NCBI RefSeq assembly: GCF_038024035.1
Contig: NZ_CP150664.1
Span: forward strand, 1,302,001 to 1,366,000
DNA from: Polaribacter pacificus
Lineage (GTDB): Bacteria; Bacteroidota; Bacteroidia; Flavobacteriales; Flavobacteriaceae
Reading direction: 5' to 3'
DNA length: 64,000 nt
Part shown: in pieces, positions 2,349-40,033 of the stretch
Position numbering within the stretch: the stretch's first letter is position 1
Layout: each line of letters opens with the position of its first letter
Notes under the pieces: generated by a model
Databases searched by the model: none
What the model saw: the letters and a program-made list of their open reading frames with translations, nothing else
What the model was told of the DNA's origin: nothing
Translations under genes and position numbers: made by a program

Positions 2349-2459
2349 AAAAAAAAAGCGACCCATCTCAGGGTAGCTTTCCATTGGTTAACAAAACCAA
2401 GGCACTTTTACTAAAGTACCAAAACAACACAACTAATTGCTACTTTTAAAAAAAGCAGC
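2349..2459 (-). ncRNA. Candidate structured small RNA (four hairpins with own promoter and terminator)
   Basis: Read on the minus strand, this ~110-nt stretch forms four consecutive hairpins. H1 at 2459-2439 has a 9-bp stem (one G-U) and 3-nt loop. H2 at 2420-2401 has an 8-bp stem (one G-U) and 4-nt loop. H3 at 2400-2384 has a perfect 6-bp stem. H4 at 2380-2355 is AAAGC-ACCC pairing GGGT-GCTTT with one mismatch, followed by nine T residues (2357-2349), an intrinsic terminator. A consensus promoter (2492-2463) puts the start at about 2458, so H1 lies at the 5' end. No ORF of useful size is present. It could be a member of a known flavobacterial RNA family (such as Flavo-1 or 6S-Flavo), which cannot be decided by eye. 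Confidence 0.65.
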
Positions 2460-2462
2460 CTG

Positions 2463-2492
2463 CAAATATAAGAGGTTTTTTTTAATCTACAA
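2463..2492 (-). promoter_or_regulatory. Consensus promoter for the small RNA
   Basis: On the minus strand TTG (2492-2490) is followed after exactly 19 bp by TATATTTG (2470-2463), the canonical Bacteroidetes primary sigma spacing. There is no coding gene directly downstream on this strand except the 3' region of the convergent DUF456 gene, so the promoter argues for a separate RNA gene. Confidence 0.7.
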
Positions 2493-2599: not shown

Positions 2600-4297
2600 A
2601 TGCAATTATCAGAACAAGAAGTTGTACGAAGAGAAAAGCTTTCTAAATTACGTCAACTAGGCATCAACCCATATCCCGCTGACTTATACCCAGTTACCGA
2701 TAACTCAAAACAAATAAAAGCTGATTTTGAGCTTGGAAAAAAGGTAGTCATCGCTGGTCGTTTAATGTCTAGGAGAATCCAAGGAAAAGCTTCTTTTGCA
2801 GAAATTCAAGATTCTGAAGGAAGAATCCAAGTGTATTTTAACCGAGATGAGATTTGTTTGGGCGAGGATAAAACCTTGTATAATGACGTATATAAGAAAT
2901 TATTAGACATTGGAGATTTTGTTGGGATTGAAGGAGAATTATTTACCACACAAGTTGGTGAAAAAAGTGTTCGAGTTCAAAAATTTACCCTACTAAGCAA
3001 GTCTTTAAAACCTTTGCCGCTTCCAAAAACTGATGCAGAAGGAAATTCTTTTGATCAATTTAACGATCCGGAGATGCGTTATAGACAACGCTATGCTGAT
3101 TTGGTTGTAAACCCACATGTAAAAGAGGTTTTTGTTAAAAGAACGAAATTGTTTAATGCCATGCGTACGTTTTTTAACGACGCTGGATATTTTGAAGTTG
3201 AAACACCGGTATTACAACCGATTCCTGGAGGGGCAGCTGCAAGACCTTTTATTACCCACCACAATTCATTAGACATTCCATTGTATATGAGAATTGCCAA
3301 TGAGTTGTATTTAAAGAGACTTATTGTTGGAGGTTTTGAAGGTGTTTATGAGTTTTCAAAAAACTTTAGAAATGAAGGAATGGACAGAACTCACAACCCT
3401 GAGTTTACTGCCATGGAAATATATGTAGCCTATAAAGACTACAACTGGATGATGAGCTTTTGTGAACAATTACTAGAGCACTGTGCAATTGCAGTAAACG
3501 GAACATCGAAAGCTGTATTTGGAGAACATGAAATTGATTTTAAAGCTCCTTATGCTCGTGTAACAATGGCTGATTCTATCAAACATTTTACAGGTTTTGA
3601 CATTACAGGAAAAACTGAAGACGAAATTAGAGCCGCTGCAAAAGGCATGGGAATTAGCGTGGATGGAACCATGGGGAAAGGAAAATTAATCGATGAGATT
3701 TTTGGTGAAAAATGTGAAGGAAATTACATACAGCCAACATTTATCACTGACTATCCAAAAGAAATGAGCCCTTTGTGTAAAGAACACAGAGAGAACCCTG
3801 AGCTAACAGAGCGTTTTGAATTGATGGTTTGTGGTAAAGAAATTGCCAACGCCTATTCTGAGCTTAACGATCCTATTGATCAACGCGAACGTTTTGAACA
3901 CCAATTAAAACTGGCACAAAAAGGAGATGATGAGGCTACAGAATTTATAGATTTTGATTTCTTAAGAGCTTTAGAATACGGAATGCCTCCTACATCAGGT
4001 ATGGGAATTGGTATGGATCGTTTGATTATGTTTTTAACCAACAACCAATCCATTCAAGAAGTCCTATTTTTCCCACAAATGAGACCAGAGAAAACTGCGG
4101 TAGCTGTAGAATTGAATGACGAAGAAAAAGCGGTTTTAGAACTTATTACCAAAGCAGAAAAAATTGACTTAAACGAATTAAAAACTCAGAGTGGCTTATC
4201 CAATAAGAAATGGGATAAAACCATTAAGCACTTAACCAATAACAAGGTTGCCAAAGTTTCAAAAACTGACATAGGTTTGTTTGTAGAGTTGGTATAA
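2600..4297 (+). CDS. lysS: Lysine--tRNA ligase (class II)
   Basis: Charges tRNA-Lys with lysine using ATP. 565 residues: an N-terminal OB-fold anticodon-binding domain (about 50-150) and a class II catalytic core with motif 2 (FRNEGMDRTHNPEF, about 253-266) and motif 3 (GMGIGMDRLIMFL, about 470-482). The typical bacterial enzyme is about 500 residues; here ~65 extra residues follow the catalytic core (about 500-565, beginning VELNDEEKAVLELI) and look like a small winged-helix unit. The ATG at 2600 gives the standard N-terminus and lies downstream of a good promoter. A terminator follows. Confidence 0.97.
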   Translation: MQLSEQEVVRREKLSKLRQLGINPYPADLYPVTDNSKQIKADFELGKKVVIAGRLMSRRIQGKASFAEIQDSEGRIQVYFNRDEICLGEDKTLYNDVYKKLLDIGDFVGIEGELFTTQVGEKSVRVQKFTLLSKSLKPLPLPKTDAEGNSFDQFNDPEMRYRQRYADLVVNPHVKEVFVKRTKLFNAMRTFFNDAGYFEVETPVLQPIPGGAAARPFITHHNSLDIPLYMRIANELYLKRLIVGGFEGVYEFSKNFRNEGMDRTHNPEFTAMEIYVAYKDYNWMMSFCEQLLEHCAIAVNGTSKAVFGEHEIDFKAPYARVTMADSIKHFTGFDITGKTEDEIRAAAKGMGISVDGTMGKGKLIDEIFGEKCEGNYIQPTFITDYPKEMSPLCKEHRENPELTERFELMVCGKEIANAYSELNDPIDQRERFEHQLKLAQKGDDEATEFIDFDFLRALEYGMPPTSGMGIGMDRLIMFLTNNQSIQEVLFFPQMRPEKTAVAVELNDEEKAVLELITKAEKIDLNELKTQSGLSNKKWDKTIKHLTNNKVAKVSKTDIGLFVELV

Positions 4298-32441: not shown

Positions 32442-32461
32442 TGTGCTTAACAACACAACTC

Positions 32462-33988
32462 ATGAGCGACTCAAAAACAATCAAATCTGCCTTAATTTCA
32501 GTATTTCACAAAGACGGCTTACAGCCTTTAGTTGAAAAACTTAACCAACTAAATGTTACTATTTATTCTACTGGTGGCACCGAAAAATTTATCACTGATT
32601 TAGGGATCCCTGTAGTTCCTGTAGAAGACGTTACTTCTTACCCTTCTATTTTAGGTGGTCGAGTTAAAACTCTTCACCCAAAAGTTTTTGGAGGAATACT
32701 AAACAGACAGGACAATGAAACAGATGCAGCTCAATTAATAGAGTTTGACATTCCTCAAATTGATTTGGTGATTGTTGATTTGTACCCTTTTGAAAAAACA
32801 GTTGCTTCTGGAGCAAAAGAACAAGATATCATTGAAAAAATTGACATCGGAGGAATTTCTTTGATTCGCGCTGCAGCAAAAAACTTTAAAGACACTGTTA
32901 TCTTATCTTCTATGGAGCAATACAATGACTTCTTAGCATTGATTACAGACAACAGCGGTACCACAACTTTAGCAGACAGAAAATCACTTGCTTCTAAAGC
33001 TTTTAATATCTCATCTCATTACGATACAGCTATTTTTAATTATTTTAACCAAGACGAGGTAGTCTTTAAGGTTAGTGAAACCAGATCTACTGTATTGCGT
33101 TATGGTGAGAACCCTCATCAAAAAGGATTTTTCTTTGGAGATTTAGACGCCATGTTTAATAAATTACACGGAAAAGAATTAAGCTACAACAACTTACTAG
33201 ACGTAGATGCAGCTGTTAACTTGATGAATGAGTTTACTGGTGAAGCACCTACTTTTGCCGTTTTAAAACACAACAACGCTTGTGGATTTGCCCAAAGAGA
33301 CACTGTTCACCAAGCCTATGTAGATGCCTTAGCTGGAGATCCAGTATCAGCATTTGGAGGGGTTTTAATCTCTAACAGCCCTATTGATTTAGCAACAGCA
33401 AATGAAATTAATTCACTTTTTTGTGAAGTGGTAATTGCTCCAGAATTTAATAGCGAAGCGCTAGAGGTTTTAAAAAGCAAAAAGAATAGAATACTCTTAG
33501 TACAAAAAATGACTGAGCTACCTCAGCAAAATGTTCGAACTGCCCTAAATGGATTACTAGTTCAGGACAAGGATATGATTACAGATGCCTTAGAAGATTT
33601 AACCTATGTTACTAACAATAAACCTAGCCAAACAGAGTTAGATGATTTATTGTTTGCTTCTAAAATATGTAAACACACCAAATCAAATACTATCGTATTT
33701 ACAAAAAACAGACAATTGTTAGCTAGCGGAACTGGACAAACAAGCCGAGTAGATGCTTTAAAGCAAGCGATAGAAAAAGCAACTGGTTTTGGCTTTGACC
33801 TGAAAGGGGCTGTCATGGCAAGTGATGCATTTTTCCCTTTTCCAGATTGTGTAGAAATCGCTGACAATGCAGGAATTACAAGTGTTATTCAACCAGGGGG
33901 ATCTATAAAAGACCAACTGAGTATTGATTACTGTAACGCAAATAATATCTCAATGGTATTAACAGGAACAAGACATTTTAAACATTAA
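32462..33988 (+). CDS. purH: Bifunctional AICAR transformylase / IMP cyclohydrolase
   Basis: 508 residues from the ATG at 32462. N-terminal MGS-like IMP cyclohydrolase domain (IYSTGGTEKFITDLG, GGRVKTLHPKVFGGIL) and C-terminal AICAR transformylase domain (LRYGENPHQKG; FAVLKHNNACGFA with the catalytic Lys-His; VIQPGGSIKD). Catalyses the last two steps of IMP synthesis in the cytoplasm. Normal length and motifs. Confidence 0.98.
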   Translation: MSDSKTIKSALISVFHKDGLQPLVEKLNQLNVTIYSTGGTEKFITDLGIPVVPVEDVTSYPSILGGRVKTLHPKVFGGILNRQDNETDAAQLIEFDIPQIDLVIVDLYPFEKTVASGAKEQDIIEKIDIGGISLIRAAAKNFKDTVILSSMEQYNDFLALITDNSGTTTLADRKSLASKAFNISSHYDTAIFNYFNQDEVVFKVSETRSTVLRYGENPHQKGFFFGDLDAMFNKLHGKELSYNNLLDVDAAVNLMNEFTGEAPTFAVLKHNNACGFAQRDTVHQAYVDALAGDPVSAFGGVLISNSPIDLATANEINSLFCEVVIAPEFNSEALEVLKSKKNRILLVQKMTELPQQNVRTALNGLLVQDKDMITDALEDLTYVTNNKPSQTELDDLLFASKICKHTKSNTIVFTKNRQLLASGTGQTSRVDALKQAIEKATGFGFDLKGAVMASDAFFPFPDCVEIADNAGITSVIQPGGSIKDQLSIDYCNANNISMVLTGTRHFKH

Positions 33989-39931: not shown

Positions 39932-39961
39932 AATTTTTGTTTAGTTTTTAATGAAAACTTG

Positions 39962-40033
39962 TAGTCCGTACGGGAATCGAACCCGTGTTACCAGGATGAA
40001 AACCTGGCGTCCTAACCCCTAGACGAACGGACC
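39962..40033 (-). tRNA. tRNA-Glu (anticodon UUC)
   Basis: 72 bases folding as a complete cloverleaf: acceptor GGTCCGT pairs with ACGGACT (terminal G-U), anticodon stem CCAGG/CCTGG with loop TTTTCAT giving anticodon TTC, and T-arm ACGGG-TTCGATT-CCCGT. Discriminator base A at 39962; CCA is not encoded. Confidence 0.97.

Follow-up and report, generated by a model that had tools for sequence, protein, structure and literature searches.

A conserved small RNA encoded beside lysS belongs to a family often linked to tRNA-Asp, with purine and pentose-phosphate mRNAs as candidate targets

The Flavobacteriaceae are a major marine and soil group, and to our knowledge few small RNAs (sRNAs) have been characterised in them. 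In proposed mode of action, the closest described counterpart of the sRNA that we report here may be FopS of Bacteroides, in which an unpaired 5' seed acts over start codon regions. FopS and GibS, both from Bacteroides, are likewise Bacteroidota sRNAs with a conserved unpaired 5' seed and a terminator, and FopS sRNAs repress through the 5' seed near start codons (accessible text of PMC11697453). FopS differs in that its 5' stretch leads directly into the terminator, whereas the present sRNA holds two further covarying hairpins between them, and in that it is reported in 12 to 15 copies per genome (same text), whereas most genomes matched in our R1 search (below) carry one copy. The DNA that we analysed, a stretch of 64,000 nt (hereafter the window), scores 15.6 bits against FopS (RF04319; gathering score 56) and 16.9 bits against GibS (RF04182; gathering score 115).

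Rfp18 of Flavobacterium psychrophilum is structured and widely conserved in Flavobacterium, as is the present sRNA, and is reported to pair through its third stem-loop with metalloprotease mRNAs (available portion of PMC9723704); set against it by description, our sRNA is possibly, but not necessarily, identical with it. A likeness of gene order, again by description, links our family to RrA, RrB and RrF of E. coli, which lie between dual rrn terminators and are made by read-through (available portion of PMC8144298): in both cases an sRNA stands behind a stable RNA and a first terminator, the stable RNA being an rRNA operon in E. coli and tRNA-Asp here. The candidate sRNAs of Flavobacterium columnare, expressed intergenic RNAs without an Rfam match (excerpt of PMC5395568), are similar by description. 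Our searches found no literature on lysS with a small RNA in Flavobacterium, and those on tRNA-Asp with sRNAs and on purH with sRNAs in Bacteroidetes returned no description of the present family; the purH of PMC2864571 concerns, in the portion available, the pfl motif. None of the literature found on these three subjects or on F. columnare sRNAs describes the family in its accessible text.

The gene beside lysS and its conservation

A sequence-only reading of the window had proposed, in the gap beside lysS, a TTG-N19-TATATTTG promoter, three hairpins of 9, 8 and 6 bp, and a terminator with nine T, with no reading frame of note. All of these elements can be read on the minus strand, and no minus-strand ORF of at least 30 aa overlaps the gap. 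The -33 element TTG (2490..2492, minus strand), to which similar elements occur among the genus matches listed, is separated by 19 nt, as read from the sequence (2492-2490 to 2470-2463), from a -7 element of TAnnTTTG type, TATATTTG (2463..2470, minus strand), which is also present among those matches. This promoter type, that of the Bacteroidota, lies outside the coverage of a generic sigma-70 scan. The predicted RNA, of about 110 nt, extends over 2349..2459 on the minus strand and would be transcribed away from its divergent neighbour lysS (2600..4297, plus strand). We infer promoter function, expression and transcript ends from the sequence, taking the 5' end from the promoter and the 3' end from the terminator.

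From its 5' end, the RNA begins with hairpin 1 (9 bp; 2439..2459, minus strand), an added hairpin at the 5' end of the lysS-linked form, which we place outside the family core because the tRNA-linked and own-promoter copies that we read run straight into the 5' element that follows it. That element, GUUGUGUUG (2425..2433, minus strand), is near-invariant, occurring unaltered in 124 of the 134 distinct sequences of the family, and lies in a stretch between hairpins 1 and 2 that is unpaired in the predicted fold; we propose it as the seed. Hairpin 2 (8 bp; 2401..2420, minus strand) and hairpin 3 (6 bp, GGUU..AACC in the alignments; 2384..2400, minus strand) are followed by a conserved AAUGG spacer and an intrinsic terminator, AAAGCUACCC..GGGUCGCUU with a U run (2349..2385, minus strand), which occupy invariant alignment columns. 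The terminator stem lies at about 2380-2355 and the nine T at 2357-2349; in the window an A-U pair of this stem replaces the commoner U-A, as in 2 of 36 sequences. A terminator scan reports hairpins 1 and 2 and misses the real terminator, the stem of which has a mismatch. G-U pairs, said earlier to occur in two of the three body stems, are present in hairpins 1 and 2. Folding of a 117-nt RNA gives -36.6 kcal/mol (z -3.38), a stability equalled by 1 of 200 dinucleotide shuffles, and reproduces the structure proposed in the sequence-only reading.

We searched 97 genomes of the genus with the DNA of positions 2345-2510 and obtained matches in 93 at E <= 0.01 and in 91 at E <= 1.2e-9, one of them over 49 nt only. 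The six remaining genomes, with completeness of 53-84%, gave two weak hits and four none. All 30 genus loci fetched have lysS next to the match, and in 26 the flank includes the DUF456 gene.

Covariation of the stems, which the sequence-only reading had suggested looking for as compensatory changes, is evident in two alignments. In a structure-free MAFFT alignment of 36 distinct core sequences, where the invariant runs are the 5' element, hairpin 3 and the terminator, both sides change in 7 of 21 pairs, with 23 such cells against 5.7 in shuffles (a count reached in 0 of 500). Further pair types are not unusually numerous there: 59 of 500 shuffles have as many. In a model-fitted alignment of 88 copies (87 distinct), which is biased towards the structure by construction, both sides change in 15 of 21 pairs and 96.7% of cells are paired; the 334 both-side cells compare with 90.6 +/- 9.5 in shuffles (0 of 500) and with no more than 92 after sliding of the partners. 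In hairpin 2, each of the 8 pairs shows variation on both sides among the 87 distinct sequences; the shape of this hairpin is thus kept with its sequence left free.

The window copy combines a predicted promoter of its own, an intrinsic terminator and a conserved unpaired segment, the combination that we took as the mark of a trans-acting base-pairing sRNA. Together with the fold, the genus matches and the covariation, these features make a noncoding RNA of about 110 nt the best reading of the locus, as had been proposed, and we regard a real sRNA gene at 2349-2492 on the minus strand as practically certain. The case against chance is strongest from conservation, namely from the 91 of 97 genomes matched at E <= 1.2e-9 and the covariation of the stems.

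Distribution and the tRNA-Asp linkage

Whether the RNA belonged to a known flavobacterial family or to a new one had been left undecided. With Rfam 15 at gathering cut-offs, no family, Flavo-1 and 6S-Flavo included, covers the sRNA in the whole window, in 20 loci or, at E <= 1, in 6 loci, and a search of the gap at a low threshold likewise gave no family match over it. By these comparisons it is a new family with respect to Rfam. The cut-offs were reached only by tRNA and, elsewhere in the window, by the S15 leader. The latter is an ordinary S15-Flavobacteria ribosomal leader (RF03161; 52122-52187), and the sole tRNA that ARAGORN finds in the window is a tRNA-Glu(TTC) at 39961-40033 on the minus strand.

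At E <= 0.01, model R1 matches 257 of the 397 genomes searched in the taxonomic family, which is an upper figure because the weak end surely includes chance terminators, as it does in the window's own genome; strict filters in such large searches also miss real copies. The own genome holds one strong copy, and its next-best R1 matches, at 32.8 and 27.7 bits, are not true paralogues. The first (L067:1501-1578) corresponds to the rpe leader read on the other strand, with an inverted repeat after it, and scores because that leader has two copies of the seed complement's 8-nt core; the second is merely a terminator. Model R2 matches 40 of 246 genomes of the order at E <= 0.001, all 40 in the window's family, and at this threshold the other families of the order drawn for the search gave no match. 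Within the order searched, the sRNA family appears to occur only in what we take to be the Flavobacteriaceae. That assignment follows from taking one matched genus, g128, as Flavobacterium, which we do because its copies carry a string found, among named genomes, mainly in Flavobacterium. Among the 80 loci listed in the named-genome scan, the string also occurs in Myroides and Paenimyroides, and F. psychrophilum is absent.

The earlier placement of the sRNA next to lysS holds in all 30 genus loci and fails across the wider family. We selected 80 further loci from the best-scoring R1 matches listed, mostly one per genome, and, after two of their 87 matches were dropped as spurious (that in L181 and a partial one in L116), retained 85 copies, with tRNA calls made also by ARAGORN. 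By coordinates, a whole tRNA-Asp(GTC) lies upstream of 55 of these 85 copies in other genera, so we regard the lysS neighbourhood as incidental. A further 11 are preceded by the tRNA-Asp 3' end alone, 12 have a promoter of TAnnTTTG type that ends 0-8 nt upstream of the core, and the remaining 7 show neither tRNA-Asp, its 3' end nor a promoter by text patterns. Where copies stand alone, only a few bases separate the -7 element from GUUGUGUUG, which therefore lies close to the 5' end. The gap from tRNA-Asp to GUUGUGUUG measures 8-98 nt (n=55), and 51-56 nt in 32 of the 55; a run of five T falls within 38 of the 55 gaps, and in the gaps that we read an inverted repeat precedes the T run in a terminator-like arrangement. 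A DNA search yielded 27 loci outside the genus; 14 had short weak hits and were left out of the alignment. Of the 13 kept, 11 adjoin lysS and 2 lie behind tRNA-Asp, so the lysS position is common to some genera near that of the window.

Some genomes carry two or more copies a few kilobases apart (L110, L112, L118, L167), one (G178) has six matches, and several of these multiple copies follow a truncated tRNA-Asp 3' end. This has the look of insertions by mobile elements that use the tRNA-Asp 3' end as their integration site and either carry the sRNA or duplicate it. Tandem units of tRNA-Asp and sRNA, two per locus, occur in L096, L100 and L139.

Candidate target mRNAs

In the window, a putative pairing site for the seed, CAACACAAC (32451..32459, plus strand), lies 3 to 11 nt upstream of the start codon of purH (aligned part of the coding region 32462..33958, plus strand), our proposed target. 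The computed duplex of the purH leader with the sRNA has 12 contiguous pairs and -15.4 kcal/mol. CAACACAAC occurs 25 times in the genome, once as the sRNA itself. Of the 24 other sites, 4 begin 11-26 nt before same-strand start codons of long ORFs, against a chance expectation that we roughly estimate at below 1 (2,400 genes, 40-nt leaders), and one more lies 24 nt inside an ORF. From a reading of the encoded proteins, we take the four leaders to be those of rpe, purH, purL and a polyprenyl synthetase gene, and the internal site to be in nrdB. In computed duplexes with the 5' end of the sRNA, each of the four leaders forms 9-12 contiguous pairs, with energies between -12.8 and -15.9 kcal/mol.

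An orthologue search of 110 genomes from 110 genera recovered purH in 107, rpe in 106, purL in 107 and nrdB in 84, and we analysed 90, 70, 30 and 30 leaders, respectively, own genome included. With the own genome excluded, the 7-mer ACACAAC occurs in the last 40 nt before purH in 32 of 89 other genera, compared with 2 of 1,021 leaders of other ORFs in the loci fetched, a comparison that favours the targets in that background starts are the first ATG of each ORF and target starts are set by homology. The same 7-mer is found in 8 of 69 rpe, 7 of 29 purL and 0 of 29 nrdB leaders. In the purH leaders no other 7-mer is as enriched, promoter words included; such words outrank it in the rpe and purL leaders. 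Of the 89 purH leaders, 57 lack even this 7-mer. P-values for 7-mers are inflated because the leaders of one gene share ancestry. Uniform start-calling, on a smaller count, gives 6 of 23 for purH and 5 of 22 for rpe against 11 of 1,085 for others, the last including own loci chosen for the motif. The purH 7-mer is not significantly commoner where the sRNA is found (20 of 45 genomes with a match at E < 1e-3, 3 of 14 with a weak one, 9 of 30 with none; p 0.15), and absence of the sRNA is poorly defined because the search filters are strict.

Duplex energies give a less specific result. Of 126 seeds of the same composition, 13 beat the true seed, which ranks 14th by mean AUC (purH 0.78, rpe 0.62, purL 0.87, nrdB 0.55); A/C richness thus accounts for part of the signal. 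Among exact 9-mer permutations, CAACACAAC ranks 3 of 126 in the target leaders. We rejected nrdB as a target, its internal site occurring in the own genome only (1 of 30 genomes). We conclude that the sRNA probably acts by base-pairing; that purine and pentose-phosphate mRNAs, its best-supported candidate targets, are the true ones we hold to be an evenly balanced proposition.

Proposed mechanism and rival readings

The mechanism that we favour, by a slender measure, is that of a trans-acting base-pairing sRNA covering the start regions of purH, purL and rpe, with tRNA-linked copies made by read-through and processing. The 5' element GUUGUGUUG would be the seed, pairing with the leader or start codon region of these mRNAs and lowering their translation. 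In tRNA-linked form, the sRNA would arise by read-through of the tRNA-Asp transcription unit and subsequent processing, and the supply of purines and PRPP would thereby be coupled to stable-RNA synthesis. In the window's genus, the gene stands alone beside lysS and has a predicted promoter of its own.

The A/C richness of the complement bears on an unlikely rival, in which GUUGUGUUG and CAAUGGAAAGCUU are binding sites for a protein, either one of the RRM type (RbpB, for example) or some other chaperone, the RNA serves as a sponge or scaffold, and the complementarity to purine leaders is coincidental A/C-rich sequence. The RNA does have two conserved segments, of which the first is unpaired; the seed control by duplex energies lacks specificity; and RbpB of Bacteroides binds FopS and favours single-stranded regions (accessible text of PMC11697453). 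That the complement nevertheless heads the purH 7-mer ranking and recurs in unrelated genes argues against this rival. We give a similarly low probability to the family being Rfp18, or another Rfp RNA, of F. psychrophilum, acting mainly on secreted metalloprotease mRNAs through a stem-loop. Besides the shared structure and conservation, deletion of Rfp18 lowers two metalloprotease mRNAs (available portion of PMC9723704), and the present family occurs once in each of at least 22 g128 genomes, Flavobacterium by our assignment, among the matches listed. Rfp18, however, is described as pairing through its third stem-loop, whereas here the stems vary and the 5' end is constant, and tRNA-Asp goes unmentioned for Rfp18 in the available portion of that paper.

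A cis-acting element, serving lysS by divergent or interfering transcription or the maturation or termination of the tRNA-Asp 3' end, is very improbable: the sRNA adjoins lysS in the genus and tRNA-Asp in most copies elsewhere, but neither neighbour is constant, 12 of the 85 copies stand alone with a promoter, and predicted transcription leads away from lysS. A role specific to lysS was dropped once the tRNA-Asp-linked copies turned up. We reject, as having a negligible chance of being right, a short mRNA in which the conserved AUG of CCAAUGGAAAGC starts a micro-peptide. The spacer does read AAUGG/AAUGA in 65 of 88 copies, GAUGG/GAUGA in 13 and AGUGG/AGUGA in 7, but 71 of 86 frames run off the transcript without meeting a stop, and frame length varies from 3 to 100 codons.

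To return to the trans-acting sRNA, a bolder form of this proposal, which we advance tentatively and think rather less likely to be correct, is a family-wide circuit linking purine and PRPP supply to tRNA synthesis, in which an sRNA produced as the tail of tRNA-Asp transcripts blocks the starts of purH, purL and rpe, the sRNA having come loose in one genus and gained a promoter of its own. Linkage to tRNA-Asp would be a simple way for an sRNA to follow growth rate. Because the family has a near-constant 5' element, clear boundaries, a recognisable place behind tRNA-Asp in many genera and specific predicted targets, its function should be readily testable.
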